From Gaertneriomyces semiglobifer (taxonomy: Eukaryota > Chytridiomycota > Chytridiomycetes > Spizellomycetales > Spizellomycetaceae), in contig JAHLKF010000028.1 of assembly GCA_025558075.1 (NCBI GenBank), positions 1 to 64,000 of the forward strand: a stretch of DNA of 64,000 bases, given 5' to 3'. Below the pieces are notes generated by a model. The model made no database searches, was not told the origin of the DNA, and saw only the letters and a list, made by a program, of their open reading frames with translations. Positions 6,601 through 64,000 of this stretch are shown piece after piece. The translations under genes and the position numbers were made by a program. Numbering within the stretch: the stretch's first letter is position 1; every line of letters starts with the position of its first letter.

Positions 6601-8709
6601 TGTTTGCCCGGGCATGAACGGATTGTTGGGGGCATGACTGCGTTGGAGGACGAAGAGGGAGAGAAAAACGGCAGCGATGAGGAGGACGAGGGAGAGGAAG
6701 GTGAGGGGATAGAGACTGACGGGGACGAGAGCGGACGGGAAAGGGATGCGAAGGGGCCGAGGCCAAGGGGAAATAGTTTGAGACGCAGCGTGTTAATGAG
6801 GGCAGGGTTGAATGGCGAAGGGGCTACCTCCGATGAAGAAGGAGAGGGAGAAAATGGGAGTGAGAGTGGGTGGGGAGGGAACTCCGCCGCTGGTAGTGGA
6901 GCAATGAACCGGGATGGTATGAATGCGGGTGATGAGAGTGATACTATGGATATGGACTTTTCATCCAAGGTGAGCGATGAGGAGGATACCCAGTCTGCCG
7001 CCAACCATACTGGTGGGTCCACGACGAATGCGACATCAACAGCGGCAGCTGGGGCGACGGCCCCGAGAGCGACCTATGTTTTCTATGCCAACAACGCGTT
7101 TTACGTGTTCTTGAGACTCCACCAAATGTTGTATTCGCGGTTACTCAAAATGAAGGAGCTCTCGGAGAAACTTGCACAACATCCTCCGGAAAGCCGCAAA
7201 TCTCGGATAGCTTTGGAATTAGGGTTACAGAAACTCCCCAAGCCTAGCGTGAGTGGCCAAGAAGGCAGTACGACGTTGCAGCACCCTCAACTTCAGCAAC
7301 AGCAGCAGCAACACCAACAACCACAGCAACCCAGAGACCGATACAGCGAGCTTCTAAAACTCGTTTTCGCGCTCCTCCAAAACGAAATCGATTCTTCAGA
7401 GTACGAAGAACGCGCACGATCCATGTTTGGCACATCAGCCTACCTTGTATTCACAGTGGACAAACTGTGTCAAGCGATTGCCAAAGCAATGCAAGCCATC
7501 GTAATGGACAGCAAGAGCATGAAGCTCCTGGATTTATATTTCAAAGATCGCGGGGTAAAAGACAGTGGAGCACGTAGCGAGGCGCTTTACCGGATCGGAG
7601 CGGAACAAGTCCTGGGTGATGAAATGGGGTATCGCATGGAATGGTTTGTACAAGAAAAAGTGTTGACGTTGCAAGTGCTTGGCAAGGAAGACGGTGGGTC
7701 TCCTTCCGCGACCAACGGCGGGACCGGGGAGGATGAGTATGGGTACACCGGTCCCGATCGCCATAGCGGATTGAGCCATGATGATAAATGGTCATTGTAT
7801 GTGGACACGTTTATCCAACTGCACACGCCCATGCATCAGCGGTCATCGTTCCCGCGGTTACCGTATCTCCGACGGACGTTACCGACAAATCTCAAGCCGG
7901 AGGATTATGATGTGAAACCCAAGTTCCCAGTGTTGAGCCGGAGCGGGCTGGAGATGAAGATCTGTGTGAACACGTACAAGGTGTTTTTCGTGGATCATAC
8001 GGAAGATTGGTATTGGCGGTGTCAGAGGGGAGAAGGACGGGCGGAAACGCGGAGGGAGAGGAGCGAGAGGTGGCGAAGCGTTGAGAAGCAGTTGAAGGAG
8101 GCGGGATGGGAGAGGCCGAGTAGGAATGAAGTACGGAAACCCGATGATGAAGATGACGAAGATGCGGACGACGATAATGATGAAGAAGATGAAGAAGATG
8201 ATGTGGATGCCCGAGTGTTTGATCGGGTGGTGAGTGGGTTGGAGGTTGTCAAGGACAAGGACGGGTGCAAGTCATATACCTTTTCGGGACGGGGGTCAGG
8301 GTCACAGAACGTGAAGCCGACCGAGGATGTGACGACGTCCAGTGGTCTTGGTCATGTCGGTAGTAGTACAACCACTCATCTGACCGACAGTGGTGGTGAT
8401 GCTGCTACTACCAAGGTTACGCCAGTGAGTGTGCCCGACCCCATATCAGCACCTATTGACCATCCCACCCCCATGGATCAGGACCCGTCGACATCAACAA
8501 CAGATCATACCATGGCCGTTCCCCCACCACCACTGCCCCCACCCCCACCTACACTCACCCCAAATGAACCTTCTACGTCAACTACTACTGCTGCGGCAGC
8601 GGTGGATACCACTCCAAGACACCCACTGGATACGACCACGCAAGACGCAATGGAGATGATGGAAGGTGTGGAACCCAAAGACCAAGACGTACAAGGTTCA
8701 CAAACTTGA
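3601..8709 (+). CDS. SIN3: SIN3 transcriptional corepressor (1604 aa)
   Basis: Scaffold of the Sin3/Rpd3 histone deacetylase complex in the nucleus. Five exons: 3601-3836, 3903-4310, 4384-4993, 5082-5667 and 5735-8709; all junctions are GT-AG and keep phase. Three paired amphipathic helix domains follow a Pro/Gln-rich N-terminus: PAH1 about residues 176-248 ([12 protein letters not shown] signature, split by intron 2), PAH2 about 373-450 (split by intron 3) and PAH3 about 542-605. The HDAC-interaction region follows ([14 protein letters not shown], about 625-720). An acidic Ser/Gly-rich linker of about 150 residues separates it from the Sin3 C-terminal domain, which begins near 1059 ([15 protein letters not shown]). 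The tail is acidic, then Thr/Pro-rich. Length is close to that of yeast Sin3. Family call is firm; the exact start is less so. Confidence 0.95.
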
Positions 8710-9332: not shown

Positions 9333-10511
9333 TTACTCATCCTTGGCACGATCGCATTCCGGAATGTCACCAGCGACTTTTCCAAACCGCATATGCTGCA
9401 TCAAATTACGCGCCGCATTATGGTGATTATACACGCCTCCATTAAACGAGACGGTGACGTCCCGTCCAATAGCAGATTTCAAAAAGACGCGGCCGCCGGG
9501 ATGAAGGTCGATGAACTGGGCAACATCATAAATGACGTTTTCAATGACCAACAACTGTTTAGACTGTGCGAGATCTTGGAACTCGGACCAGGTGTAGGAC
9601 GGGAGAGAAGCAAGGGGTTTCCCGTAATCGAGTTGTTGTTTGATAGCGAGGATTTTCTTTTCCTGCATTGCAATGCGGCCTTTTTGGATTTCGTTATCGG
9701 GAAAGGTGTTGAGGTTGTAGGTGAGACCGAATTTGGAGGAGAGCCAGATAAGCCATTTGGTGGGGTCGTATTGCCAGAAACGGATGGCGTTACGAAAGTC
9801 GGAGGGGAATTCGTGGTGAAAGTTGTGGTATCCTTCGCCGAGGGTGACGATGGCGGTGAAGAAATGGTCACGCGGGGTTTGACGGTCGTCGTAGGTATGT
9901 TCACCGAGCCAGTGAGCGAGAGAGTTGACGCAAAAGGTGGCGTGGTGGAGAAAGACGAGACGAACGATGCCTGCGTAAAAGTATCCGCCTTTCCAGTCGC
10001 CCCACCCGAGACCGGCGACGAGGGTTGGGAAGACAAAGCCCATGAAGAGCATGAGGGGGACAAAGTTGCGGTGCTGCCAGTTGACGACGGGATCGCGTTT
10101 GAGGTCCGAGATGTCTGCTTTGCCGTTGGATCTGGACGGGTCCTTGATCATCATCCAGAGGATGTGGGAGTGCAAAAAGCCGCGGTGGGCTGCATAAGGG
10201 TCCTTGTCGGTGTCGGTCCATCTGTGGTGGGCGCGATGGTGACGGGACCACCATTTGATGGACCCTTCGACTGCGCCCGCGCCAGCGAGGGCCATCCAGA
10301 CTTGGAAGGGTTTTGCGGCATCGTAGGAGCGGTGAGACCAGTATCGGTGGTAACCTGCGGTGATACCGAATCCGGTGATAAAGTAGTATGTCAGTGCCCA
10401 GATGGCGGTTTTTGGGACGATGGGGACGGAAAGGAGGGCGTAGATGGAGAGGAGGGGAGTGATAGTGAGGAGACCGGACGACAGCCAGTCAATATCTTTG
10501 ACCGATACCAT
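9333..10511 (-). CDS. OLE1: Acyl-CoA delta-9 desaturase with cytochrome b5 domain (392 aa)
   Basis: Endoplasmic-reticulum enzyme that inserts the delta-9 double bond into palmitoyl- and stearoyl-CoA, using electrons from its own C-terminal cytochrome b5 domain. The three histidine boxes of the di-iron centre are present: HRYWSH at 55-60, HRAHH at 92-96 and HNFHH at 229-233. Hydrophobic membrane segments lie at about 13-50 and 150-195. The b5 heme motif HPGG is at 337-340, with the second axial His near 363. I chose the ATG at 10511-10509 because the longer frame (to 10613) begins in a translated (GT)n repeat. It is shorter than yeast Ole1 (510 aa), mostly at the N-terminus. No intron. It converges with SIN3. 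Confidence 0.95.
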   Translation of the reverse strand: MVSVKDIDWLSSGLLTITPLLSIYALLSVPIVPKTAIWALTYYFITGFGITAGYHRYWSHRSYDAAKPFQVWMALAGAGAVEGSIKWWSRHHRAHHRWTDTDKDPYAAHRGFLHSHILWMMIKDPSRSNGKADISDLKRDPVVNWQHRNFVPLMLFMGFVFPTLVAGLGWGDWKGGYFYAGIVRLVFLHHATFCVNSLAHWLGEHTYDDRQTPRDHFFTAIVTLGEGYHNFHHEFPSDFRNAIRFWQYDPTKWLIWLSSKFGLTYNLNTFPDNEIQKGRIAMQEKKILAIKQQLDYGKPLASLPSYTWSEFQDLAQSKQLLVIENVIYDVAQFIDLHPGGRVFLKSAIGRDVTVSFNGGVYNHHNAARNLMQHMRFGKVAGDIPECDRAKDE

Positions 10512-11828
10512 GATGTGGCGTGTGTGTGTGTGTGTGTGTGTGTCGTGTTCTGCTCGCTTTGTATGTGTTCTCTCTCTCGCTGGTGTGTGATATGCGATTG
10601 TCAGGGTATCCAAGTATCGATGCTGCTAGTGCTGCTTGCTTGCTGTGTATGGGGGGGTATCCCAAATGAGGTTCGGTCCTGTTTATATATATTCTCAGCG
10701 TTGTGTTGCGTGCATGGATGAACTGAACATGAAGCAGAGGGACGTTGAAAGAGGATTCTCCGGGACACCCGTGTCTTTTTATCCTTTTTTTTTTTATTCG
10801 TTCATTCGCACTGCCAAGATTGCATTGCATTGCGTGTTGCGATTGCACACCCTTTCTTATCCCTGCCCTTCAATCTTCAATTCACCAATGCCAGCCACGC
10901 ACGGCACGCAGCAACTTCTTTCGCTCGCTATGCATATGCGCTAGCGCTACGCCAGCACAAGCACATGCATGGTGCATCGGCCGAGTTGTTCATCCGCGTC
11001 GTGTGCGAGTGTGTGTGTGCGAGTGTGCTGCTGTCTCGTTGTCTATCTCTCTCTCATCTTCTCTCTCTCTCTCGTCATGGTGCCTAGTAGCAGGATAAAA
11101 AGAACAGCAGAATGGTAGAACTCACCCCCCAACTTTTTTATCGCGCGTCGTTTTTGTTGTGTTCTTTTTATTCATTGCTGAGCTGAGTTTGTGTTATTGA
11201 TTATTAATATTACGCGTCGCTGTGTGTGTCACAGTGTGTGTGTGTGTGTCATATTCATTACATTACTATGAATTTGAAGCACGGGTTGGCAATGAATGCT
11301 ATTAGTAATAGTTACTCTTGGCTGTGCGAAACCCCTAACCCTTGATAATGACTCTGAAAAACACATGTAAAAACATTGTATATACAAAGAGCTTATCGAA
11401 TAGCAATTTTCCAATTACAATATACAAATTTCGGTCGAGCAGAAGTGGGTATAATGAGGACTCTGTCGACGACCCTTGTATTCTTGACCGAGATATCAAT
11501 GCTGCCAGCGCATCCTTGTGGACATTACAGCGCACGGATATTATGGATCTACAATCCGTATTCCATATTCGCGCGCTGTTACGTTCCCAAACAGTCCGTG
11601 CAATGGGGTCCCTCAAAGGTTTTCGCCTCTTTTAGCAAGGTGCTGGCAACCTTGTCTACGTTCTCAACGTCCGCTCCGGCCCTTTCATCACGATCCTAAT
11701 TCGGTTCCCCCACTTGGCCGTAGTAGCTATTCTCCTGCCCGACAAGATCCAGTCAAGATGATGGCCTTCAGTTTTTGGGGTCGCATCAATGGCCGACTGT
11801 CGGCGAGTCGTGACGCTTCGAACGGGTA
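10512..11828. other. Intergenic region with simple repeats
   Basis: Upstream flank of the desaturase gene: (GT)n at about 10519-10543, a T-run near 10784-10796, a CT-rich tract at about 11041-11080 and (GT)n near 11229-11249. No convincing coding region is seen. Short overlapping open frames on both strands derive from these repeats. Confidence 0.5.
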
Positions 11829-12260: not shown

Positions 12261-12779
12261 CCACTACCCGCATCTCAAGGACATGGGCCATGACCACCAT
12301 ACAGCGGTGTGCGCTGTCAGTTTCGAGGTAGGTTCGCGCATGAAATCCATTTCGAAGAGCGACTGTCACTGACGGATTCCTTCCCTCCACCGCCTTGTTT
12401 AGATTACACCCCGGGACTTGGAAATAGACAACGCTTTTATGTATGGATTTGCGGATTCCGAAGTGGACGTCTGTCTGACGTACTACCAATAGTATTGCTG
12501 TCCGCTTTTTGACACTTAGTATCAGTTCACCGTTCATGTTCACATTCATTAATTCACGTTCTCCCGGGTGACATAAGCAATGTATGTGATAACAGAATGC
12601 ATTGTTAAAGTGTGTTGTCAATAAGTGTTCATGTCTGATCTGGGTCACGTGAAGTGCGAGGGAATGTCCGGACGGAGGTGAGAAAGATGCATGCGTGGCC
12701 GAGAGGAGAGTGAGAAAAGTGAGCAGCTAGCGGTGGTAGCAGGTTAGCAGATAGTCATATACACCCTTATATACACACA

Positions 12780-15700
12780 ATGACGGTCAATGACGAGAAT
12801 AGAACTCCACCACCACCAGTGAAACGCAGCCGCAAAGCATCCTCGTCGTCGTCGTCTGCCACCACACCAAAAGTATTAACTCCACGCGTTCAGATGCAGA
12901 CGACCTTGACCTCCTTCTTTGGGACTCCAAAGGAAAAGTCTTCTGCTACGGCGACCGCGGCGAATACGGCTACGGCTGCTCCTGCTCCTTCCACGGCAGA
13001 GAAGAAATCAACCCTTCAACAAAAGGGGTCCGTCACCCCTAGCACGCGATCATCGGCAACCACCACAACAACAACAGCAGCGACAACGCCGCATCATAAT
13101 AATAATAATAACGCTGCATCGCCTTTCGATTCCCCCGCCGTTCGCAAGTCCTTGGGACTTCATTCTCACATTGGCAGAATACGTCAACCCGATTTCACTC
13201 CCAAAGCAAGCACTCCAAAATTTGGAATTCAAGATGACGAGGCAAAGGACGATGATGAGGAGGATGATGATGAGGGTGATGTGATAGGCACACCTTCTTC
13301 TAGAAGGAGACTACGCAAACGGAGGGCAGGATTCTATCGAGAAGATGACAATGACGATGATGATGATGACGACGGTGAAAAAGACCACGGCAAAAAGTTG
13401 ACGCCTAAACGTCGAAAAGTCATCACTCTCAGCGACGACGACGACGACGACGATGATGATGATGGGGACGGTGCTTGGAAGCCTGACGATGCTCAGCAGG
13501 TGGATCACGACGACGACGATGATGTAGATGTAGAGGACGATGCTATGGATCTGGACGAGGATGAACCAGAACCAGAACCAGAGGATGCGGATGACACGGA
13601 TGAGATCATTAGTAGACCACGGTCTCGTAAAGGCCGCGGTGCGGGTGCGGCGGCTCGATCCACTCAGATACCCAAAACGCCACGTACTCCGAAACACCAA
13701 TCCACCACATCCAACTCCACTCCCACTTCTTCCAACAACCTCGCCCGGTTCGCGCTCTCTCCCAGAACACCCACTCAATCGTCCAGTCCCTTTACAACAA
13801 CGGCAACAACAACAATGTCAAGAACTTCGAGTCCGACTCCACCGACCCCTTCACGCACAGCTCAGTTCAAAGAGAAAAATGAACTGCGCTACGCATGGCT
13901 TCTCAACCCATCCGACGCGGACGGCCGACCTCCCACCGATCCCTCGTACGATCCACGCACACTGTTCATTCCATCCCACGCCTGGCGCACATTTACGCCG
14001 TTCGAAAAACAATTTTGGGAGATCAAGTCCAAACATTGGGACACGGTGGTCTTTTTCAAGAAAGGGAAATTCTACGAACTCTATGAAAAAGATGCCGATA
14101 TCGGGCATCAGCAGTTTGACCTCAAGCTGACCGACAGAGTCAACATGCGCATGGTCGGTGTTCCCGAATCGAGTTTCGAGCATTGGGCCGCGCAGTTTAT
14201 TGCTAAAGGATACAAGGTAGCACGGGTGGACCAGGCAGAGACCGCCGTCGGCAAGGCGATGAGAGAGCGAGAAGCCAAAGAAGCCGGTAAGAAAAAGGGA
14301 GAAGACAAGATCATTCGCCGCGAATTGACCTGTGTCCTGACCGCGGGGACACTCGTGGATACCGGCCTGTTGACGACCGATATGGCAACATACTGTATGG
14401 CGTTGGTGGAACGCTCCTTTTTTGCTTCCGATACGCGTGTGAGCGCTACTGCTCCTATCGGATCTGTTCCCGTATTTGGTGTTGCCTTTGTGGACACATC
14501 AACATCCCAGTTTCATATCTCTTCCTTTATCGATGACCCCTCACTGACCAAACTCGAGACCCTCCTCCTCCAGATCTCGCCCAAAGAAATCATTCTCGAA
14601 AAGGGCAAGCTGTCCCCGCTCGCCATGAAGATGCTGAAAGCCGTCGTTCGGGATGTCCAGATCACTCAACTGGTTGCGGGACGCGAGTTCTGGAACTGTG
14701 ACACGTTGTGCGATGAAATTGTCGCAAGCCAGTATTTCGGAGCGGACAGCGCCGATCGCAGTACATGGCCTCCTGCACTTGCCACCACTGCGACCACTGC
14801 TACCGCTAGTGATGCCGGTCAGGGTGTTGCGGTCTCTGACGACCATCGCCCCGCCGTAACCACTGCCGCAGCGGCCATGGACGCCCTGGGCGGCCTAGTC
14901 TCCTACCTTCGCACCCTCAACCTCGACGTTCAAACACTCGCCTGCAAGTCCATCCAACACTACGATCCCGCCCACTCCACAACGCTCTGTCTCGACGCCC
15001 AAACCCTCTTAAACCTCGAAATCTTCCAGAACGCGTATGACGGGAGCGACGAAGGAACCGTGTTCAAGCTCCTAAGTCGCGGAATCGTGACGCCCATGGG
15101 ACGACGGATGATGCGACGGTGGGTGTGTCACCCGTTACGCGACCTGTCTCGGATTCAGGAACGGTTGGATGCACAAGCTGTGTTGTGGGAGTTACGGGGC
15201 GAGTGTGCGAGGGTGAGAAAAGTGTTGGGGACGGTTGGGGATGTGGAGCGGGGGATCAGTCGAGTTAAGAGTGGGAGTGGGGTGCGTGTGAAAGAGTTTG
15301 TGGGTGTGTTGGAGGGGTTTCGGGTTGTAGATGAGGTGTTTGTGGGGATGGAGCATGTTTTAAAAGGAACTCCTATTGGTGGTCAGAGTGAGAGGTTGGC
15401 GGTGTTGGTGAAAGACGGGGTAGGGGAGACGTTGAGAGGCATGTTGAAATGGTTTGAAGAAGCGTTTGATAATGAGGTCGCTAAACGGACGGGAAATATC
15501 GAGTTGCGAAGAGGGTATGATGCGTATTTGGATTCCACGGTCGACGAAATGACGAGGATAGAAAACGAGTTGGAAGGGTTAAGGCAGGAATATGAGCAGG
15601 TGTTAAAGTGCAAGATCAAGTACAAGGATATGGGAAAAGAGCTGTTTACGATCGAAGTGCCCAAGAGCGCCGTGTCGCGCGTTCCCAAATCGTGGAAGAT

Positions 15701-16991
15701 ACGTAGTCAGACAGCGCAGTGTTGCCGGTATTGGAGTGAAGAGGTGGAAGGGCTTGTCAACGAATACGTCGAGGCGAGGGAGAGAAAAGAGGGTGCTCTG
15801 CGGGAAGTGAAGGAACGGTTGTGTAAGCGGTTTGGGGAAGGGTGGGAAGCGTGGCGGCGTGTGGTGGAGCGCGTTGGGGAGGTGGATTGTTTGATGGCGT
15901 TGGTCGAGTGGCGAAGGATGTGGGGAGACAACGACGTGTGTCGACCTGTGTTTGTTAAAGCGGATAAACCGACGTTGGTGTGCAAGGGGGTGAGACATCC
16001 CTGTGTGAGTGTACGGGAGACGGGGTTTGTGACGAACGATGTCGTGTTAGGAACGGCAGCGGCGGCGGGAGTATCAACACCTTCCTCCTCAGAAGAAAAG
16101 GAGGCGAGGATCTTGTTACTGACCGGGCCGAACATGGGTGGGAAATCGACGCTTCTCCGGTCAACCTCCCTCGCCATCCTCCTCGCGCACCTCGGCACAT
16201 GGACACCCTGCACCTCCTACACCTCCACCCTCTTTGACCGCATCTTCACACGCCTCGGCGCCTCCGACTCGATGCACACCAACCAATCGACGTTTCACAT
16301 GGAGTTATCCGAGACAGCGACGATCTTGAGGGAAGCGACGCTGTGGAGTTGGTGTATTGTGGATGAGTTGGGGAGGGGAACGAGTACGTGGGATGGGACG
16401 GCGATTGCGGGTGCTGTGTTGGAGGAGTTGGGGCGAAGGGGGTGTTTGGGGGTGTTTGCGACGCATTATCGCGGGTTGGTGTTGGGACATCACCAACAAC
16501 ATCAAAATCAACAGGCACAACATCAGCATCAACAACAGCATTCGCAACAGCATCAGACGAGAATGGTGATGAATCAAAGCGCGGAGAGAGACCACACGGG
16601 GATCGTATGTGGGTACATGAGTTATCTCACAGGATCCACAACCGGGAACCCGCCACAGCAGCACACATCAGCAACAGGCGATGCTGATGATGCAACGCGA
16701 TCCGATAAACGAGCAAAAAAGACTGAGGAACGCAATGTGACGTTCCTGTATACCCTCGTCCCTGGCATTTCACCAGCGAGTTTCGGGATGAACGTGGCGT
16801 GTATGGCTGGCGTGCCGTTATCGGTTGTTGAGAGTGCGGAGCGGGCAGCTGGGAGGATGGAAAACGGGGATTGGAGTGTGACTGTGAGTAAGGTGCCGGG
16901 AAAGAGTATGGTGTTGAGGAGCTGGGTGGAGGAAGGGGTGGGGAGGGTTTGGAAGAGGGTGGTGGAGGGTGGGACTGCCAAGCGCGGGTAG
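12780..16991 (+). CDS. MSH6: MSH6-type DNA mismatch repair ATPase (1403 aa)
   Basis: Nuclear MutS homologue that pairs with MSH2 to recognise base mismatches and small loops. The N-terminus carries a PCNA-binding PIP box QTTLTSFF at 40-47, then a long acidic/low-complexity tail with nuclear-localisation-like basic patches; no PWWP domain, as usual in fungi. The mismatch-binding Phe-x-Glu motif (FYELYE, from residue 431) is characteristic of MSH6. Walker A GPNMGGKST is at 1116-1124, Walker B and signature VDELGRGTSTWDG near 1192-1204. After the ATHYRGL segment an unusual Gln/His-rich insert of about 80 residues interrupts the ATPase domain before the conserved FLYTLVPG region. Single exon, start at the first ATG after a TATATA-rich leader. 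Confidence 0.95.
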   Translation: MTVNDENRTPPPPVKRSRKASSSSSSATTPKVLTPRVQMQTTLTSFFGTPKEKSSATATAANTATAAPAPSTAEKKSTLQQKGSVTPSTRSSATTTTTTAATTPHHNNNNNAASPFDSPAVRKSLGLHSHIGRIRQPDFTPKASTPKFGIQDDEAKDDDEEDDDEGDVIGTPSSRRRLRKRRAGFYREDDNDDDDDDDGEKDHGKKLTPKRRKVITLSDDDDDDDDDDGDGAWKPDDAQQVDHDDDDDVDVEDDAMDLDEDEPEPEPEDADDTDEIISRPRSRKGRGAGAAARSTQIPKTPRTPKHQSTTSNSTPTSSNNLARFALSPRTPTQSSSPFTTTATTTMSRTSSPTPPTPSRTAQFKEKNELRYAWLLNPSDADGRPPTDPSYDPRTLFIPSHAWRTFTPFEKQFWEIKSKHWDTVVFFKKGKFYELYEKDADIGHQQFDLKLTDRVNMRMVGVPESSFEHWAAQFIAKGYKVARVDQAETAVGKAMREREAKEAGKKKGEDKIIRRELTCVLTAGTLVDTGLLTTDMATYCMALVERSFFASDTRVSATAPIGSVPVFGVAFVDTSTSQFHISSFIDDPSLTKLETLLLQISPKEIILEKGKLSPLAMKMLKAVVRDVQITQLVAGREFWNCDTLCDEIVASQYFGADSADRSTWPPALATTATTATASDAGQGVAVSDDHRPAVTTAAAAMDALGGLVSYLRTLNLDVQTLACKSIQHYDPAHSTTLCLDAQTLLNLEIFQNAYDGSDEGTVFKLLSRGIVTPMGRRMMRRWVCHPLRDLSRIQERLDAQAVLWELRGECARVRKVLGTVGDVERGISRVKSGSGVRVKEFVGVLEGFRVVDEVFVGMEHVLKGTPIGGQSERLAVLVKDGVGETLRGMLKWFEEAFDNEVAKRTGNIELRRGYDAYLDSTVDEMTRIENELEGLRQEYEQVLKCKIKYKDMGKELFTIEVPKSAVSRVPKSWKIRSQTAQCCRYWSEEVEGLVNEYVEARERKEGALREVKERLCKRFGEGWEAWRRVVERVGEVDCLMALVEWRRMWGDNDVCRPVFVKADKPTLVCKGVRHPCVSVRETGFVTNDVVLGTAAAAGVSTPSSSEEKEARILLLTGPNMGGKSTLLRSTSLAILLAHLGTWTPCTSYTSTLFDRIFTRLGASDSMHTNQSTFHMELSETATILREATLWSWCIVDELGRGTSTWDGTAIAGAVLEELGRRGCLGVFATHYRGLVLGHHQQHQNQQAQHQHQQQHSQQHQTRMVMNQSAERDHTGIVCGYMSYLTGSTTGNPPQQHTSATGDADDATRSDKRAKKTEERNVTFLYTLVPGISPASFGMNVACMAGVPLSVVESAERAAGRMENGDWSVTVSKVPGKSMVLRSWVEEGVGRVWKRVVEGGTAKRG

Positions 16992-33284: not shown

Positions 33285-36200
33285 ATGACTTCGTCGCCGT
33301 CGAAAAACTCCCTCCAACCCCCGAGCGTGAATGAGTCGGGCCTGAAGCATTCGGGATCCGCCGATCTAAGCAGTCTAGCGGAAGAGGGCAATCTGAATCT
33401 GGAAGGTGTGATATTCAGCGTTGAGAGGGCTCATTTTGGTTTGGGATTCGCTCATACTGGATGGTGTCAACCCCTCAGAGCTCAGGAAGGACCCTAAATA
33501 TCGGCGATACGTACACTCAGTTGATAAAATCCTGCAGAGTTTCGACACTATAAGCGAATGGGCGGACGTTATAGGGTTTCTAACGAAACTGGCAAAGGCA
33601 AGCCATTGAACCGTTGGTTGCATCCCCGCATGTCAGGGCTAATAGCTCGTGCCTTCCAGGTATTACAAGCTCATCCCAACCCGAACCCACCGCTACCGCG
33701 TAAGCACCTCATAGCTAAGCGCCTTGCTCAATGTCTCAACCCAGCCCTTCCGGCTGGAGTCCATCAGAAGACGATAGAGGTGTACTTTCTGATTTTCGAG
33801 AAAGAACGAGACGCAGTGGTTGACGATCTCGGCCTATGGAGTCTCGGAATCTTCCCCTTTCTCAACGATGCAGGGACGAATGTGAAGCCTCAAGTGCTGT
33901 CTTTGTACCGAAAGCACTATCTGCCTTTAGGCCTAAAACTGAAACCCTTGCTAAAACCTTTCATCATTGCTGTGCTACCCTTGCTTGAAGAGGAAACGGG
34001 TGAATTCTTTCAAGACGCATTGGCGCTGTTAAGCCAGGTTTCTACAGGTGTTGGACAGACCTACTTTTACCATTGCTTATGGTTAGCTATCATCACGGCA
34101 CCGCATCATCGTCTTGCTGGACTCAACTTTCTGTTGAAGCGAATGCCCAACGTAAAGAATGCTGAAGACGTAGCGGTAGTTCTTGGAAATGATACAAGAC
34201 TGCTCGCACGTGCTATTGGGTGTTGTTTGGAGGATGAGAGGGTGCTCGTCTGTCGGGGAGCGTTAGAAGTACTCGTTGGCTGGTTTCCAATCGAGCGTAA
34301 GATCTTTGGTGAGCCGGATTTACGGATGCTGCTAGGTTCGGCGGTTGGAGTTGTGCTGCGAAAGGACATGTCGTTGATGAGACGACTGAGTACGTGGCTC
34401 CTAGGCAGCTCAGGCGCTAACTCAAAAGTAATGCCGGCAGAAACCAGGAAATTGGTTGGGGAGGCAATAAAGCACTTGTTGAGGCAACCGAGTCCAAACC
34501 CATATCGGATACTCATCTCATTGCTGGACCGAGAAGAATTGGGTATCATCGTTTCGGATGTGATGCCGTCTGTGCTACACGCTATCAAGAACACATCCAG
34601 CGACGAAGCGCGAAAAACGGGCGAAATGGTGATCCGGGCTGTCGAAGTTAGTTGGGTATGGAAAGCATGTTATCTGGAGGCTCGTGGAACGGATTATGAC
34701 CTCCTCGAGTTTGTCACGCGAAATCTGGACATGAAGTGGGAAGATGAGGAAAGCCGCAGGATATGGATACCGATTTTGGGGTGGTGGTTGGCCGGCAAGG
34801 GTCTCGAACTGGTTCGGCAAGGTGACAAGAGTCAGGCGGAGAGAGTTTTTGGCGTTCTGGAGGGCATCGTGGGATTCCTTCACGGATTGAAACCCACCTC
34901 ACCAGAAGTATTAGACGAAGTTCCTGAAGAAGAAATATCAACGACGATTATGTCATTTCTTCAAAACCCTGGAACAGACATTGCACTGCCTACTGATGTT
35001 ATTCTGCGCTCATTCCTCAGGCGATGCGGTGGCGTTGTCAGCGAAGTCCGGAGACAAGAGTGGGATGGATGGAACCAAGTGTTGCAAGGCGTCGTAGGTG
35101 GCGTCCGGGGCGTTTGGGGAGTTGTCGGCTGGACTGCGGATACCCTCAACGGTGGAAATGCAGATTCCCGTTGGGCGGAAGGCTTACAATCACTCATGGA
35201 GGCGGCTTGGAAGCCTTCTGATCCGCGAATAAGCGAGTCGCTCATTTGGCTGATTTTATTTTTGCTGCAGCATCCTACCCGCCCCATTCGGAAACCCGCG
35301 GGGTTTACGATGTGGGTAGAGAACGTGTTGCACAGCGTGTGGGAACGGTTAGAAGACAATGTGGAGAATTGCACAGCGATAATATGGGCATTGTGGGAAG
35401 TCGATGCGTATAGCGTTTTGGATGTTGTAAGCGCATGCGTCAAGAAGGACTTGGACACGGGACGCATCGGCAGGACGAATGCGTTCTGGCGTGGGAGTGG
35501 TAAGTGAATAATGTAATTTACTGGAGAATGCACAACCGGTATGCTGATTAATTTTTGTTTTGGCAGAGGAACAGGGCAAAGATCCGTCGCTGCATTTTGA
35601 CAGGATTATATTCCTCATCACTCAGCTCGATGATAAGATGTTGGAAAGGTTCTTGACCAGCGTCCGTGGTTACATTCGGTAGGTCATTGACTGCCTGGAA
35701 GCTAACGCAGTGATACCCGTGTTGATACACAATGTGTTCCGTAGACTCTTCGATCCGTTCATCACGATTCTGCTCCGCACGGTGGGTGAGCTTCAGCCAC
35801 TAACAGCAGTTGTTCGAAATATGGAAATAGAGCTTGTGACTATCCGAAAGTGGGATTGGGAGCAGATTGCGTGGGCGTGGGTGATCATTGGAAAACTGTG
35901 CGGGAAGGATCACCGTGGACGCGGATGGAGCGTTGTTGGCGTACGATGCGAGTGGAGAGGCATATGGCAAGACGTGAAGCCCTTTGCTGCCGAGGGGACC
36001 ACGTACTTAGAAGCGTTAGTATTGCTCGCTCGGCGATTCATGCAGCTTGCACCCTCTGCAGCAGAGGCCACGCATGTCCATATAGCCGTCTCGACCTTCC
36101 TCCGAAATGTAATCACCTCCCATTCTTTAACCGATAAGGTGCGCTCGCTCATGTTGGGAACCTGCATCCGACGACTGGCCTATAACGTATTTGCCTCGGA

Positions 36201-39084: not shown

Positions 39085-40654
39085 ATGTCCTTCTTGAGGA
39101 GCACATCGGTGGCTGCGGGGCGTTCTGTGGTTAGTTTGCAGCAGCCAGAGCGATACGTTGCCCGTAACTAACAGTGCAACGTTTTGTAGTCTCGCCTTGC
39201 CAGCCGTAAAGGCCTCGCTACCCTCACCCAGCCTACCCCGTCACTCAAAACTCTGAAGTACACCTACCCGCAATCGCTAGGCAATGTGCCTGAGACCAAA
39301 GTGACCACCCTCGCCAATGGCCTCCGCATTGCAACCGAAACGAACCCGAATCACCAAACCGCCACTGTCGGCGTGTGGATCGATGCCGGATCTCGCTTGG
39401 AGTCTGACGCCACCAACGGTGTCGCGCATTTCTTGGAACACATGGCCTTTAAGGTGCAGTTCGTTTGCCGCTACAGGTTTTGGCCGACAAAATGCTAATA
39501 GTAGATGACTACAGGGCACCAAGAGTAGGAGTCAGGTCCAGCTTGAAACTCAGATTGAAAACATTGGGGGACACTTAAATGCATACACTTCTCGTGAACA
39601 AACGGTATATTACGCAAAAACTCTCTCGTCGGACGTCAACCAAGCCGTGGAAATCCTCTCCGACATCCTCCAAGGGTCAACGTTGAGCAGAGACGCCATT
39701 GAGCGTGAGCGGGATGTTATCTTGCGGGAAGCTGAGGAAGTTGATAAGCAAAAGGAAGAGGTTGTTTTCGATCACTTGCATGCATCTGCTTTCCAAAGAT
39801 CAGCTCTTGGACGCACCATCCTGGGTTCTACTCGCAACATCAAAACCATTACTCGTGAAGATTTGGTGAACTACATTGAAGCTAATTACACTCCGGATCG
39901 TATGGTTCTTGCGGCGGCTGGTGGTGTTGATCACGACGCCCTCGTAGCAATGGCGGAGAAACAGTTTGGCTCTTTGGCTCGTGGCACAGTTCAACAGAAA
40001 CAGCCCAAGGCAACCTTCTTTGGGTCTGACGTTCGTGCCCGTTTCGATGATCACCCCACCGCTCACGTTGCCCTTGCTGTGGAGGGTGTCAGCTGGACAA
40101 GCCCTGACTACTGGGCTCTTCTCGTTGCGCAGTCCATCATTGGCAGCTGGGACCGCTCCCTTGGCGCTGCTCCACACGTCTCCTCGAAACTCGCACAACA
40201 GCTCAACAAGTGGAACTTGGCGAATTCCTTCATGTCTTTCAACACATCATACACGGACACTGGTCTCTTCGGCGTGTATGCGGTGACATCTGATCGGATG
40301 CACCTCGATGATCTTGTTCACCACATTCAGCAGGAATGGCACCGTCTTTCTTCGAATGTCAGTGAAGCCGAGGTATTCCGTGCCAAGAACCAATTGAAGA
40401 CTTCCCTTCTCCTTGCATTGGACGGCACCACGCCAGTAGCTGAGGACATTGGTCGTCAAATGCTGGTCTACGGAAAGCGTTTGACGCCTTGGGAGGTTGA
40501 TGGTTTGATCGAGAAGGTTACTGCTCAGGATGTCATGAAGGTTGCGGAGAACTACATCCATGATAAGGAGGTGTGTATGGTTGGATACGGTCCGATTGAA
40601 TCACTGCCGGATTACAACCGTGTGCGTTCTGCTATGTCTCCGATCTACACGTAA
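39085..40654 (+). CDS. MAS1: Mitochondrial processing peptidase beta subunit (482 aa)
   Basis: Catalytic subunit of the matrix protease that removes presequences from imported proteins; M16 metallopeptidase. Three exons: 39085-39129, 39190-39453 and 39515-40654, GT-AG. The N-terminus is a typical Arg/Ser-rich presequence. The inverted zinc motif H95-FLE-H99 ([11 protein letters not shown]) is intact across the second junction, and the distal acidic helix ([19 protein letters not shown]) supplies the third zinc ligand. The GG-rich flexible loop of the alpha subunit is absent, and an intact HxxEH argues for beta rather than the core bc1 subunit, although in some eukaryotes one protein does both. 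Confidence 0.95.
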
Positions 40655-49866: not shown

Positions 49867-50874
49867 ATGCACGCCTCTTCCTTGCTTCTCACCCTACTGG
49901 CCGGAGCAGTATCCGTGTCTGCTCATGGCCACGTCTCCTCACCCCCTCCTCGCCTGCCGGGTCCAGCCATGCGTGCCGCATGCGGCGACCAAATCTTTAA
50001 TGTCCAGAATCGGGACAACGGAGGCCCCATTCAAGACCTTGAAAACAGGCGCGGAAGAGGATTTGACGCTAGCAAGTGCAATTTATGGTTGTGTAAAGGT
50101 TATCAGTTTGACGATAACACGCAAAACCTGCAACGCTATCGCGCTGGCGAGACCATTGACTGTGAGTTATAGTTGTTTTTTCATCTTGTGCAATGAACTG
50201 TGTCCTAATACCCGATTTTCTCAGTCAAGGTGGACATTAGAGCCCCACATACTGGCACGGCCAACGTCTCAGTGGTGCATACAGCGTCGAACACGCTTCT
50301 CAGCCAGCCTCTGATCTTCTTCAACGACTACGCCAGCTCCTCTCGGCCCATTCCCGACTCGAACAAGAACTTCCGGGTCACGATGCCCAACCTCGGCAAT
50401 CAATGCACTCAGCCTGGAGAATGTACGCTCCAGTTCTACTGGGATTCCAGAAGCGACAGGCAGAGCTACGAAAGTTGCGTGGACTTTGTCAATGCCGGAG
50501 CGGCCCCTCAACGTCCTGCCAGCGTTCCTGCGCCTCCTCCTTCGGCAAAGACTAGTTCTTCCGTGCGGGCTGTTCCCACCGCGACGAGGGCAACTTCTGT
50601 ACCTAATGTCCCTACACCGGCGGCGACAACCTCAAGTTCCAGGATCCCTCCCGCAGTTAGGACAACCTCAGTTGAAGCGCAGGCAGCAACTGTGACCGCG
50701 GCCACACAAGCCCCCACCTTGTCGGCGACCCCAGCCGTTCAAGTTGTTACCACCGCTGCATCTCAATCTACCGCTACCACTACCACTCTGGCGGTTACGA
50801 TCCCTACCAATCGCCCCGCACAAAACAAATGCGTCGTTGCTGGTTTAAACAGACGCTCCTATAGATCTTGTTAA
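49867..50874 (+). CDS. Secreted LPMO-like (chitin-binding type-4 fold) protein (314 aa)
   Basis: Probable copper-dependent lytic polysaccharide monooxygenase or related copper-binding secreted protein. Two exons, 49867-50161 and 50225-50874, GT-AG. A signal peptide of 19 residues ends ...SVSA, so the mature protein would begin with His (HGHVSSPPPRLPGPAM), as an LPMO histidine brace requires; a second candidate His is in the APHTGTANVSV segment (about residue 107). Several paired cysteines (AACGDQ, KCNLWLCKGYQ, QCTQPGECTLQF, YESCVDF) suit the disulfide-bonded fold. After about residue 205 a Ser/Thr/Pro/Ala-rich, probably O-glycosylated tail runs to a short basic end. Substrate (chitin or cellulose) cannot be told from sequence, and redox activity is inferred. 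Confidence 0.75.
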
Positions 50875-53970: not shown

Positions 53971-55275
53971 ATGAGCGGAAGACCGCGAAGTCGCTACCGA
54001 CTTCATCAGAACTACACAAAACTATTATTGTTGATACTGGCACTGGGCCTGACCGGGAACATCTGCGGTGCTTTGGCCGAGGCGAATCCTCAAGTACTGT
54101 GCATCTGTCCTAGAGGATTTGAGTGCATAGTTTCCCGAGGGGTATGTATCTGCGCCTTCTCTGTATGTCAACCCTGGAGTGTGCTGACGAACGGTATTGC
54201 ACTATAGGAGTTCTTTTGTATTCGGGAAATTCCACAACCCACCACAACCTCCCAGACTAGCATCATATTCTTCCCGACAAGAACACCAGTACAATCCAAC
54301 CCACCTGCCACGACGACACCGACTACACCACCACAACCGACGACCTCGAGTCCACCCATCACATCGTCTCCGCCAATCGTTACCAGTCCTACTGGCGCTG
54401 GAACTACGCCTATCAATCGTGAGCCGACACCGACATCAACGTCGATATCCGACTCAGAGGTAGTAAAACAGGATGCACAACAACGAGCAGCTCCCAACGC
54501 TGGAGTTGTTGCGGGCGCGATAACTGCAAGTGCGGCCGCCGTAGGCGTGATAGGTCTTTTCGTGACCTATAAGCGGAGGTCTAAGCTTGCGGGCCGGTCG
54601 AACACTGTTGACTATAATCCGTTAAAGACGAGGTCCATGAGAATAAGTCCTACCGACCGTGGACTGGAGGCAGGCCAACATGATGGATACGAGAAGTTGT
54701 TGCCACCGACTCCGCTTACTTCACCACCGCCGGTAGCGACTTCTCCCATCGCCACCGTTCGCTACGGAGACTTCAATAGCCCGACGCATATCTCGGTCAG
54801 GATTGCATCTCCCAGAATGTCTACGCCGTATCTAGATATTGATATTGACCAACTAATGGTGGCCGCCCGGTCACCACCTACTATGGGCCGGACAAGCCGG
54901 TCGATTGGGATACCCAATTCTGGAACGATACCTGCGGAACGCACACCGCTCCGCACAGCTGCTGTTCGGCAGGAAGCATCAGTTTCTCCTACAACACCTA
55001 CCGCCGAGTCACTGAGCCTTCAGCTTCCCGTTCCTCGTCGAGGAAGCTCATTCCACTCTCCAATAACCGCGCCACCACCAGCTGCCGATGCTCCACCGCT
55101 GCCGAGCCCTGTGCCTCCGCGTCGTCTTGCAGTTCCGCCGCCCACACCCGTCGACACGAGTCTTGGCCGCATTTTCAGGACCACATCTTCAAACGTGCAG
55201 CGACAAGCAACACGAGGCACTGTGGCCAGCGACGACAACTTCTTCAGCTGGATGCAACGACGTGGAGAACGATAA
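53971..55275 (+). CDS. Mucin-like single-pass membrane protein (412 aa)
   Basis: Two exons, 53971-54141 and 54208-55275, GT-AG, phase 0. A signal-like hydrophobic segment lies at about 17-36 (KLLLLILALGLTGNICGALA). A short Cys-bearing ectodomain follows (VLCICPRGFECIV...EFFCI), then a Thr/Pro/Ser-rich stalk of about 80 residues likely to be O-glycosylated. One transmembrane helix is at about 155-176 (AGVVAGAITASAAAVGVIGLF), followed by a basic stop-transfer KRRSK. The cytoplasmic tail of about 235 residues is Pro/Ser-rich with PPTP and PPPxP-type segments. The layout resembles fungal surface sensors of the Wsc/Msb2 kind, but no domain proves that; function unknown. Confidence 0.65.
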
Positions 55276-58055: not shown

Positions 58056-59330
58056 TCATTCGCTGCTGCGCAAACGAGGTCCATTGAAATTCTTTTGGGC
58101 ACCCGAAAACAGACGTGCGATGACCGCGACAAGTTCGCTCTATACCATACATGAATAGCCCTTTTGTGGTTTCGGGTTGCGCTTCAAGTTTTTGTGTGCT
58201 TGATTAGAATTGCTTGTATGCTCTGATGGGGTTGTTCACAACCTGCTCTTTTTGATCATTTCTACGTATATATGAAACTTCTTGATTTTGGATCTATCTA
58301 ATATAATAACGACTCGGTGTACATAACACAGCTGCTGTTTGCCCCTCTATGCCCGGTATTTGGTTCACATGCTCTTTACATGCTGACCTTCAAATGAGCA
58401 GCTTAGCGGCTGAATGGCGGCCAGGTCAACCGCATGCCCAGTCTGAGACAAATTTAAAGGTAGGCCAAGTCATCGCACATAGCTCTCGCGAAATGCGGCG
58501 GGGAACAGGGCGACAAGGTGGATAGTATAACAGCATCCCCCGTACTACGGAGGTCATTGTTCCAAAGTCTTAATTTGGAGGATTACGTTTAAATTTCGCA
58601 AGAGGTGCACCTGACATGGTAGAATTGCCTTAAGATTGGATGGCTGAAAAGCCAGTAAGGCCGGCGCTGGTTATAAGTGCGGTTGCAACGCTGATTGAGT
58701 ACTTTGCCATGTAGCCAGACGTAAACACACATAATCGCTCCGTTTAAAACAACGGCACGTAATAGGAAAAACTTTGCCGCGATAGTCAAGTGGGACGGTC
58801 GACGATGGAGATTGAAAGCTTGTAGGCCTAATGTCTTACTCACTCATGGAGCCACCCACTTTGTGCTCTCGCCGTCGTGACCATTAAGTAGAGGAGGCGG
58901 TAATAGCAAAAGAAAGGACTTTCGGACGAGCCGAGAAACGATGTGTTTTTCTTACAGACTGGAGATTTCCAAAGTCCCATGTGCCCAAATGAAGGATTGT
59001 GGATGCTTACCCACCTTCGTTCTTCCTCTTTTTTCGAGTTTCGCAGAGAAAATGGTACCACATCCCGCCGCGAGTTTCACCCACTATGATCCCGATCAAC
59101 GAAACTGCGAGAGGAATGGGTATAGCATATCGAGAAATCATTAAAGGAGACGACTGTTGGTCTTTGATGAGTGTGTGGTCTAATTGACTCTGTTATTGTT
59201 GGTTGAAGACCGCTGTAACGTGTAGGATATGTGGCCTAGAGATTTTTGAAATCACAAGCACAATTTGGCCATGGCTATGGCAAGCCGGCCCAGCCATTTG
59301 ACAGCCTGTGGCGGCAGCGACCGTCGAGCA
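58056..59330. other. Gene-poor stretch
   Basis: About 1.3 kb. Opposing open frames at 58589-59187 have no recognised domain. No gene is supported. Confidence 0.4.
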
Positions 59331-59339
59331 GTTTAACTA

Positions 59340-60180
59340 CATGAGCAGCCTCGGCTCGTCGCCAAAACTTCACGCATACTTATTTCTAACCCAACCCAAC
59401 CTTTATTTTTCTTTCCAAGATGAGTTTTTACTCTTGTGTGCGGTCTGCCGGCGTTTCCTTGTTCGATGGATCTATGATGGCCTCGAAAACGGCGAATATC
59501 TGGATCGTGAGGATTTTGAAATGCTTGTACGGGACAGGCGTTTTAATGAGACAGGACGTTGTGTGCTGCTGGCCGACGGCACTGTGTCCATGTCAGGCAA
59601 CTTAGCGGACTGGCTATGCGGACAGTGATAAACGAAGAGCAGTATTCATCGACCGATGGCTGGCACAAAGAAGATCATCCATACCAGTATTCCCATGATC
59701 TCCTTGCCAAATGTTGTCCTGAAGATGAGTACGTGATGAAAGAGTACGATATCAGTTTTTGTGGATTCTCAAAGTACCGCGATACTAAAGAAATCGGGAT
59801 TCTATGCACTCTATTTGTGGGAAATTGCTGGTTGAAGCATTGAAACGGCGACTTGATGTGAAGGGCCGCGAAGTCTTCAGTCTCCATTTGGTTGTGCGAT
59901 GACAATTTTACCGACTCCTACCCGCTGAGTTTGGTACCGGTTGATGGTATGTACGCAGGAATTGAGAACGTTCACGGTGACGGGTTTGAGCTCGTTAGGA
60001 TCCTATTCCCGGAATCTCATTTGTCGTATCGTAGAAAAAAAAAGCGGGACAGCTGTTGGACAACGACAAATCTTTGGAACCCAATGTTTTTTTTTGGTCT
60101 GCCTCGGAACGTTGTATTGCTGATACTGAATTCACTGGATTATCAAGACCTACTGAATTTTTGGAGTATATGAATAAATC
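59340..60180 (+). pseudogene. Decayed F-box-like gene
   Basis: Three plus-strand pieces in different frames read as protein: about 59410-59620 (CAVCRRFLVRWIYDGLENGE, REDFEMLVRDRRF), 59610-59843 (EEQYSSTDGWHKEDHPYQYS) and 59892-60173, which ends in GLPRNVVLLILNSLDYQDLL, close to an F-box core. Stops (TGA 59626-59628, TGA 59841-59843, TGA near 60172) and frame changes separate them. An F-box normally opens a protein, so its position at the end suggests fusion or rearrangement. Family of the first pieces unknown. Confidence 0.3.
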
Positions 60181-61936
60181 CATGTCGAAACTGTTGTTGT
60201 CTCACTAATATGTCGGGGTTTGGAAATAACTGACATCGAGGAAGATATCCAATTTCACTATTGAAAGGGCTACAGGACATAGACTGGGAAACTGTACAAA
60301 CATTGATATCGTCCAATGCACGTAACCGGGCACGATCACGGAAATTATTGAGGATATCTTAGACGAAGCAGCGTATTAAGATAAAAAGCGGAGAAACCTA
60401 ACTGCAAGTAGAATATATAGGGCTGGCGGCCGTCACACTGATAGGATCTTGATAAGAAAGCCGAGAGTGAAGCGAGGTCCCTCACTGGAGGCCTGTGTTA
60501 TGCCGAAGGTTGAACAGAAGCAGTACTTGGTTCAATTTGGTGTTCAACCGGGCAGTGTCTCGGGGCACCCAATTGGTTTCCGAATCAGTGGGCAAGTTGC
60601 GCCCAACAGTAAATACAAGCAAGGAAACGAGATGCGGACCGCTCGCTGCCGTCGAGCCCGCATGCCCAAAAAAATAACGTCTTGGAGCCGCCTGCGAGAG
60701 GGCGAGGACTGCAGCGAGTTTTTTTTTTCTTATTTTTAAAGAGCAGCGTCCAACATGGTTTTGGGACCTTCCAAGACCTTCCACAAGATCGAGCGGACTG
60801 TCGCTCGTTCACGCCCATAGGCCGACATACAGCTCGAGAATACCCTTGATGGTATTCGTACCTTTCATCGCGACGAACATGAAATGATAACGCATTGAAG
60901 CCCTTAGAGAGTGAGCGCGCATCGATTAACGATTTATATGTGAGACATATCATTCCAGGTCGGGTTCGAATAGTAACAGAATTGACCAGACATCCTCGGT
61001 GTCATATTCGTACCCATTTCCGCTGAGCTGTCATTCGACCCTGCGTTTGAGAAAGCAGCGATGCGGATCTGGATGAAACGCCATCAATTCGGAGTCTGAC
61101 GGAGTTCTTATACTATACGCAATTGGTCAAAACCAGGTCAGGACATCTTCTATGTCTTTCCTATGTGGTCGATAGTGTGCCTTTCGTCGCTTTCGTTTCA
61201 GGCTGACAGTTCGGTAGTTCCGCTTGATTAGTGTCGCTCCTGACGGTTTTCCATCCGCAACTCCATCAGAGACCAAATCAAACATCAACTATTTCTGCGG
61301 TTGTTACTATAGATAATGGAAGGAAGCATACAGTAGGTCATTAAGTAGAATAAACTAAAGCTCGGTTTGTACTGATGGCTTCATTCATTCATTACCTCCC
61401 TCCCTGCCAAGCAGGCAGGAAATGGGTTTTAACCACTTGTTTATGAGAAGACGTAGTTGATACTGATACGTCTGATCGTCCTTCACGAAGTGAATGTGCA
61501 GTGGCTCAGAAAATGAGTCGTCCGACATCTTGTTGCAGTATGTGCAGTGCCAAATGGTCACCAGCTTATCTGTCAGCTCTGAATAACCGAGCCATCATGG
61601 CTCTATAGATACCAGTCAGTGGAAGATGTTGGTTTGGAGAACTCTGCTAGAAAACATTTGTAAGAAAAGAGTAGGCCCCAGCTGGGAGTAAGGCCTAAAA
61701 GCCATTGTTCTTGCTAGCTCCTCAACTTGATAGAGTCGGAGGAAGAACAGAGGATCAGAGATACAGAGGTAGGTAGAAAGTGGTGGAGACACTTCTACTA
61801 AAGGACACGCCAACTCCTCGCAAACGCAAATCTTCACCATGACTTCTGATTCAGATGATGATTGGCACTGGGCTTTCCTTTCAGAAATTGTTTGCCGACA
61901 GGCAGTCAACACTTACCTTCCGGCACTCATTGAGGC
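60181..61936. other. Gene-poor stretch upstream of the Crinkler-like gene
   Basis: About 1.75 kb with no supported gene. Frames at 60449-60953 on both strands overlap and are basic and low-complexity. T-rich and A-rich short runs occur near 60667 and 60720. Confidence 0.4.
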
Positions 61937-64000
61937 ATGATAAATGCAGAATTATCCCTTTTCGAAGCCATCTCTGGCGCAAGGATATCTAGAGTGCGCC
62001 TCTCAAGAGACGCTCTCATTGCCGACTTGCAGGAGCAAGCTAAGGAATGCTTCTTGGACCTGTTCGGTGCCAAGTATCCCCCATCCGCTATCAAAGTTTA
62101 TAACGTATGTACATTCTCTTTTTTCCCCCACGCACTCATTCATCGGGCTACTGACTGACACTTGCCTTGCACTCATCGCTATTGCCGCCATGGTTTTCTG
62201 ACGATGTTCGATTGCACAATCTATCCGTAGGGACGGACTTGAGTGCCTTGGGTCCCAGCCTGAGTGCTTTGGACACTGTTTTGGAACACTTTGCGGAGAC
62301 ATCGGGCATCGCAAAGTGTGTACATTTTGTGGTGGAGGGTCCCAGTGTAGGAGTGAAGCGTAAACTGGAACTGGCGACAGGTAGGCGTCTTCTGGCGAGG
62401 TTCGGTTTTCTGTTTAATCGAGCTAAGGCTTTGAATGTCACATGCAGCCGAAGAACCCCGTAAATCTCAGCAACGGTACAGGAACAAAACAATCAGCGTT
62501 TTAGCTCCCGTGGAGCCTGAGAAACACTTAGTTGTCCCTTTTGACACAATCAGAGCATATGATGACGCTTTGACCAACTTGCTGCCTTCGAATCGCAAAG
62601 TTGGGCCTTTGGTAGTGATTCATGGGCCTTATGCAACAGGAAAAAGTTCTCTGCTGCAACAAATCATGGCCAAATTGGAACATTTGAACGATTCAGTCGT
62701 GTGTTTTTACGATGCAGGAGATATCGTTTGGCCACCATCGTTGACCGCCGCAACATTTTGGGAAGCCATGGGAAGGAATCTAACCGGTGACGACCTAAAG
62801 TCGCATACTGGCGCCGAAATTGCGGAACGGATAAGAACCAAAATGGGTACGCCTGTACTTGATTCTTGCTTTACGATATCACGTCTGATTGTCCGTCTTC
62901 GTTCGTTCAGCAAACAAGCGGTGGTATCTGGTGATCGATGAATTGGGCAACCTTCTGGCCAACGATGTAGCGAGAACAGAGTTTCTTGGATTTCTGAAAG
63001 GAATAACCACATATAGCCAGAAGAACGTATTCTTTGGCGGTTTCCTCGGAGCTGGAACCCATTCGCTCCAAAATCTCTTGCGGACGCCAGATCCCACTCC
63101 CACACCAACACCGGTTACACAAGGCAGCACACCGACTCCTGTGGAATTAGTAAAACAACTACATGCACTGCCAAACATCTTTAAACGATCACCCTTTTAT
63201 CATGCGGAGTTCATCGCGATGGAGTTATTATCTTTGGAGCAAGCAGGCCACTACTTCGGAAGTGTCATGAAGGAATTTAATATGGAAATCTCGCCAGATG
63301 TCCAATTTGATGTTTATCAGTTTACTGGTGGGAACGTAGGATTGCTCTCGGCCTGTGCTTTCGTGATTACTAAGCAGCAATTCAAAACGATTACTATGCA
63401 AGAGTGGGAGCAGGTAACTCATATACATGTTGTCACTTTGTCATCGCAACCCCTCATCTCATTATTTTACAGCTCAAACTGGTTGATGTTTTTGATTTCC
63501 TTAGACTCTGCAACCGAATGGTCATTAGAGTCATTCAATTTTTGAAAAGCATTGATGCAGGTATTCGGCAATATATTTCGATGTTGCTTCAGGCGGACGA
63601 TTCTGTTTCGGCCGACTCCGAAGATAGCGAAACCATTGATCTACTTCAAGAAGCTGGTATAGCGCAAAGGCGTGCCGGTGGACGTTTGGCACTTTCATCC
63701 CCATACATGAAGATGCTGCTTCTTTCTTTGCTCTTTGACGACATTCATCCGGTTCAACAAGTCCTCCCGACGCTTCCATCAGGTGCTCTAGACCCATACG
63801 GTATTCTGACCTTGGCAATCCGTCTGATTGATGCGAGTATGTGCATGCTTGGACATTACGAGGCGAGGATCAGAGTACTGACGGTTCATAACAGGTGTGA
63901 TATCGTCCGCGTTCACGGCAAACCGGGAGAGTCCTTCGGAATCGGTTTTCCAAGTAGAACTCTATACTGCATTGCGGAAGCTAGGCAAGGGCGGCGATGT
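61937..64000 (+). CDS. Crinkler (CRN)-like protein with AAA-type NTPase, 3' end cut by window
   Basis: Multi-exon gene: 61937-62108, 62231-62380, 62448-62846, 62911-63413, 63473-63836 and 63895 onward, all GT-AG and in phase (the first donor, GTACAT, is the least certain). Residues 1-95 look like a CRN N-terminal ubiquitin-like header: a short leading strand, a charged helix (ALIADLQEQAKECF), an IKVYN strand and a closing HFVVEGP that matches the HVxVxxP boundary motif. Then a P-loop NTPase: Walker A GPYATGKSS at 167-175, Walker B YLVIDE near 246-251 and the FLGFLKGI / GTHSLQNLL / FTGGNVGLLSA pattern of the ATPases found in CRN proteins. After a helical region the last visible exon begins a FQVELYTALRKLG segment, expected to open a PD-(D/E)XK-like nuclease domain. 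No signal peptide is seen. Cellular target unknown. Confidence 0.75.

Follow-up and report, generated by a model that had tools for sequence, protein, structure and literature searches.

Why free-living organisms keep Crinkler-type (CRN) proteins is a standing question, and it is raised here by a gene of Gaertneriomyces semiglobifer, a soil chytrid of the Spizellomycetales that is treated as saprotrophic (PMC9024642). The window, ie the whole stretch of DNA analysed, comprises bases 1-64000 of contig C28 (263,468 bp) in a genome of 20.86 Mb and 66 contigs. The product of the gene, which crosses the right-hand edge of the window, reads in order as a header, a P-loop AAA+/STAND-like NTPase, a winged-helix region and, in the last exon, a PD-(D/E)XK nuclease. 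We regard it as fairly probable that this is an intact gene for an intracellular nuclease controlled by nucleoside triphosphate, of the Crinkler/CR kind known as 'NTPase + HTH + REase' (HTH, helix-turn-helix; REase, restriction endonuclease). The sequence shows how the domains follow one another, that the catalytic motifs are conserved, that there are five paralogs and that the shared core can bear either of two header types; the function is inferred.

Reading the contig past the window edge, the rightward extension that the preliminary description had asked for, completed the gene (61937-64331, stop TAA) and placed the nuclease pattern in its last exon. All six exons lie on the forward strand and are open, with GT-AG junctions of consistent phase across introns of 122, 67, 64, 59 and 59 bp. 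Exon 1 (61937..62108) encodes the first part of a header of about 95 residues, with IKVYNV at residues 52-57; its codon score is weak and it has no Pfam match. Exon 2 (62231..62380), supported by codon score and motif counts, completes the header with HFVVEGP at residues 89-95 and continues into a basic linker, KRKLE. Exon 3 (62448..62846) contains the Walker A motif GPYATGKSS, and exon 4 (62911..63413) the Walker B motif LVIDE together with GGFLGAGT, RSPF and FTGGN; both exons are present in all five genomic copies. The winged-helix region occupies exon 5 (63473..63836), found in all four other copies, and the nuclease occupies exon 6 (63896..64331, to 64000 in the window; 64331 is L001 4331). 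For the first donor, GTACAT at 62109 was preferred to GTATGT at 62105, since its phase fits that of the acceptor at 62230 and the phase of GTATGT does not. By codon usage the proposed frame beats the other five in each of the six exons, and the score of exon 2 is exceptional, being reached by 0.7% of the stop-free stretches from the flanks that served as the null.

The public model of this gene, P0008 (494 amino acids), has exon 3-6 junctions identical to those given here. It starts inside exon 3 and so contains neither the header nor Walker A, and it is most likely truncated, because Walker A is conserved in all five copies. The Rhizophlyctis rosea model P0010 also starts downstream of Walker A, and both models look truncated. 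Upstream of the gene there is a 33-codon open reading frame (ORF; 61839-61940) with CACCATGA as its start context; its stop codon and the start codon of the gene share bases (ATGA). Codon usage gives this ORF a positive score, at a level that 12% of null stretches reach, and it could be a regulatory upstream ORF.

The preliminary description had called the central part an AAA/STAND-like NTPase, and the presence of Walker A and Walker B in 5/5 copies bears this out. The match of exon 3 to AAA_16 is below the cut-off (E 6.3e-06, 27.2 bits; cut-off 32.6). The third element of an AAA+/STAND NTPase, the winged helix, was found in the predicted model of P0009, the public model of the copy on contig C2 (BC832DRAFT_165835), whose first exons are as read from the DNA. 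There the region runs helix-helix-helix-strand-strand-helix over residues 386-460. A PADLOC search gave weak matches only, mostly at the P-loop, the best being mad8 (E 0.00052). By structure the NTPase matched ORC/Cdc6 best, which raises the alternative that the gene encodes a chromatin or replication factor, ie an AAA+ protein of the ORC/Cdc6 type that has a nuclease as accessory domain. We consider this very improbable: AAA+ cores widely resemble one another, the ORC models score far below cut-off (for P0009, ORC-CDC6-like at 12.2 bits vs 27), and paralogs only 31-46% identical with a changed header are unlike core replication genes.

The last exon follows the pattern E...RLDL...FELK...QAxxY. 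A PD-(D/E)XK nuclease was defined as D...ExK on a helix-strand-strand-strand-helix-strand core, with QxxxY, and these core elements occur at residues 510-631 of the P0009 model. In the nuclease alignment D55, Q87 and Y91 are each kept in 10/11 sequences, and E69 and K71 in 11/11. The C2 copy (P0009; L018 3388-3786) has S for the catalytic D of RLDL and keeps E-x-K. The nuclease that had been expected in the last exon is therefore supported by the pattern, read as far as C28:64331, with no match to a curated hidden Markov model (HMM). The single PDB sequence that it matched, at E 0.3, belongs to an unrelated molecule, and a search for full-length relatives by the nuclease region alone returned nothing beyond the gene itself. 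Viral contigs searched with the nuclease and NTPase alignments gave 37 and 72 pattern matches, and one prokaryote genome gave 34, with no relative among them. Separately, P0001 and P0006 have the same nuclease behind an SGLIYRIC..VFPRRN segment, and the nuclease family extends to Tirmania and Rasamsonia (P0002 and P0004).

Given the motifs in 5/5 copies, the catalytic D in 4/5 and the way the elements succeed one another in the P0009 model, the family has the NTPase, HTH and REase C-terminus of a CRN protein. In this arrangement, an NTPase followed by winged-helix/HTH and PD-(D/E)XK nuclease, it resembles the Crinklers (CRN/CR) of oomycetes, Rhizophagus and Batrachochytrium that have such a C-terminus. 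By comparison with descriptions of CRNs, the core in the window fits the NTPase+HTH+REase module described for Phytophthora (PMC5289972).

Exons 3, 4 and 6, each used as query, led to the same five genomic places, on contigs C2, C3, C16, C19 and C28; this is a lower bound, ie at least five copies. NTPase, winged-helix region and nuclease are collinear in all five, which are 31-46% identical to one another over exons 4-6. Upstream of the four other cores is a short two-exon SAM-like segment, not the header found in the window. In P0009, which otherwise has the same core and differs in this header and in the S for the catalytic D, SAM_2 matched residues 3-60 at E 0.015 and 15.9 bits (cut-off 20.5). 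The predicted model shows four helices there, with a block predicted local distance difference test score (pLDDT) of 48-70. P0008 is 37% identical to P0009 and 41% identical to Rhizophlyctis rosea HDV00_001806 (P0010), which has the same core in a model without the N-terminal part.

FastTree, applied to exons 4-6 of seven sequences (the five copies, Rhizophlyctis rosea and P0011), gave an unrooted tree in which the window copy pairs with C2 (local support 0.97) and C16 pairs with C19 (1.0), while C3 falls together with R. rosea and P0011 (0.81). Trees of single exons joined the window copy to C2 for exon 4 (0.97) and exon 5 (0.67) but failed to do so for exon 6; they joined C3 to R. rosea for exon 6 (0.88), barely for exon 4 (0.20) and not at all for exon 5. 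Since SAM-like headers occur in all three tree groups, the simplest assumption is that the ancestor had a SAM header, and the header of the window copy is probably a replacement within a SAM-headed family, as judged from these sequences.

What, then, is the header of the window copy? Two landmarks in its 95 residues are CRN-like: IKVYNV, from residue 52, and HFVVEGP, from residue 89, which is the HVxVxxP-like boundary that had been pointed out earlier. In 20000 shuffles of the header a boundary of this type arose 2 times under strict and 18 times under loose residue classes, which were set after seeing the sequence. An IKVYNV-type motif arose in 866/20000, and the two patterns in order in 0/20000, again with patterns drawn post hoc. 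Open frames totalling 123,584 residues contained the boundary pattern, with its classes set afterwards, 2 times, HFVVEGP included.

The landmarks resemble, in the same order, the LxLWKV motif of Rhizophagus CRNs and the HVLVEPP boundary of RiCRN1 (PMC6131194). They are one reason to weigh a true Crinkler effector, in which a divergent ubiquitin-like header would export the NTPase-nuclease from the fungus and bring it into a different cell. Another is that a gene-poor setting like that of the window gene is described for the CRN genes of Bd (PMC5364385). We nevertheless judge an effector unlikely. PF20147 found no Crinkler header in exons 1 and 2 taken separately, in the spliced header or in the organism's own genome, though that genome does contain an unrelated ubiquitin-like domain reaching 19.4 bits. 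The latter, a PF20147 candidate on C4 (L023 4441-4710, minus strand), was rejected by eye as a ubiquitin-like domain and not a Crinkler one; we take it to be the ubiquitin domain of a ubiquilin/Dsk2-like protein. Weak PF20147 matches can therefore be plain ubiquitin-like domains. Exon 1, folded alone as half a domain with no alignment, and hence not a fair test, gave two helices and no strand, at low confidence (pLDDT 70.2). Furthermore, the host is saprotrophic and the four sibling cores carry SAM-like headers, and for the latter reason an intracellular role is favoured over that of an effector.

Other searches with the header were equally negative. The exon 1 model had 0 structural matches in PDB at E <= 0.001, the best match of the spliced header to PDB sequences was at E 0.92 to unrelated enzymes, and exon 1 had no second match in its own genome at E <= 10. 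Exon 1 had no match to Pfam SAM, and gave p 0.32-0.60 against the SAM halves of its siblings, in a pairwise test that some SAM halves fail themselves. A SAM domain hidden in the upstream ORF (61839-61940), where YLPALIEA is suggestive by eye, was also considered and rejected, since the ORF gave p 0.07-0.99 against those SAM halves, which is not significant, and had no match to Pfam SAM either. The header is at best CRN-like. Of the CRN protein proposed in the preliminary description, the NTPase and PD-(D/E)XK C-terminal module stands by its motifs, and the ubiquitin-like CRN header is conjectural. The guess of a chytrid as host was right.

The family can also be set beside the fungal NLR/STAND proteins, which have a P-loop STAND-like NTPase, a winged helix and interchangeable N-terminal domains. 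The C-terminus of an NLR is a repeat sensor, whereas that of the window family is a nuclease. The N-termini of fungal NLRs include Crinkler and SAM types (PMC9815663), and among the CRN-like genes of four chytrids only 2 are described as having signal peptides (PMC5364385). For these two reasons an intracellular arrangement of adaptor, switch and nuclease is the best reading, with swappable adaptor headers by analogy to those of fungal NLRs. The header would act as an adaptor, or as a sensor or oligomerisation part, and the switch would be formed by the AAA+/STAND-like NTPase and its winged helix. When the switch fires, the C-terminal PD-(D/E)XK domain would cut nucleic acid within the fungus, either in defence or in self-restricting conflict. 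The window copy would have arisen in the SAM-headed family by header replacement.

A number of observations weigh against an intact, switch-controlled nuclease with an exchanged header. The codon score of exon 1 is one that 21% of null stretches reach. The nuclease has no Pfam match (E <= 5) and no match by sequence to a solved structure, and the listed fold matches cover the AAA+ and winged-helix part, not the nuclease. The C2 paralog, because S replaces its catalytic D, may be inactive. An alignment to NLR superposes poorly. Of the half-SAM pieces 4/8, one per paralog, match a SAM family, all below Pfam cut-offs (E 0.00073-0.16), and in the C3 copy it is uncertain where the two SAM exons join. 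The tree is unrooted, with seven sequences and local supports only; the group of C3 and R. rosea is unstable by exon, and exon 6, taken by itself, does not join the window copy to C2. Were the root on the branch of the window copy, its header would be as old as the SAM one.

The surroundings of the gene bear on whether it is alive. Coding-like coverage, scored with a codon table built from long ORFs of the window itself, is 0.17-0.38 in 7/7 two-kb bins from 48 to 62 kb vs 0.58 over 1-58000, in agreement with the gene-poor setting reported earlier, and 0.82 over the gene. Equally low values occur in 5/24 two-kb bins before 48 kb. The low block holds two long ORFs (50209-50874 and 54208-55275) and, next to the locus, several-frame pieces of a decayed F-box gene (59302..60460, forward strand; F-box 16.1 bits, cut-off 20.5). 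One piece (59862-60170) is 43% identical to an open 369-residue frame on C1, and the others were assigned to that frame by eye only. The C1 relative scores above the F-box cut-off (23.0 bits), which upholds the earlier identification. Downstream, a piece at C28:64454-64855 (L001 4454-4855) is 50% identical over 51 residues to an open 228-residue frame on C26. With such pieces on both sides related to frames open elsewhere, and with a truncated public model, the gene might be a relic in decay, dead like several other accessory genes of this gene-poor block. This is improbable in our view, as its exons are all open, its junctions are in phase, its catalytic residues are kept and its own frame has the best codon score in all six exons. 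The window gene looks intact amid decayed pieces.

An 18-nt inverted pair with 1 mismatch flanks the gene (61879-61896 and C28:64932-64949, the latter L001 4932-4949). It shows no extension and, by eye, no target-site duplication; among the genome matches listed there is one further, with 2 mismatches, also on C28. Two inverted pairs occur in 10 kb, one of which has an arm within exon 5, and they were not accepted as transposon ends. The gene-dense part of the window contains ordinary genes, for Sin3 (5695-8706), a desaturase with cytochrome b5 (9336-10625, minus strand), a MutS-type mismatch repair protein (12723-16988), Dopey (33528-35504) and an M16 peptidase (39509-40651).

Within the terms and library used, the literature contained no report of SAM-headed CRN-type nucleases, and a search there for papers on chytrid NLRs gave no result. 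The results suggest that searches by CRN header would miss the window family, and the public model of the window member has neither header nor Walker A. That the window copy differs in header from its four siblings may hint that these proteins work inside the fungus, not as injected weapons. More tentatively still, chytrid Crinkler-type NTPase-nucleases may be immune-type receptors that reside in the cell and whose adaptor headers, SAM or CRN-like, can be swapped; oomycetes and Batrachochytrium may then have co-opted such proteins as effectors at a later stage. If so, one free-living genome would hold both header types, SAM and CRN-like, on one core. A five-member family with that core, four SAM-like headers and a culturable saprotroph as host is a small and tractable set for testing whether such proteins act inside the cell.
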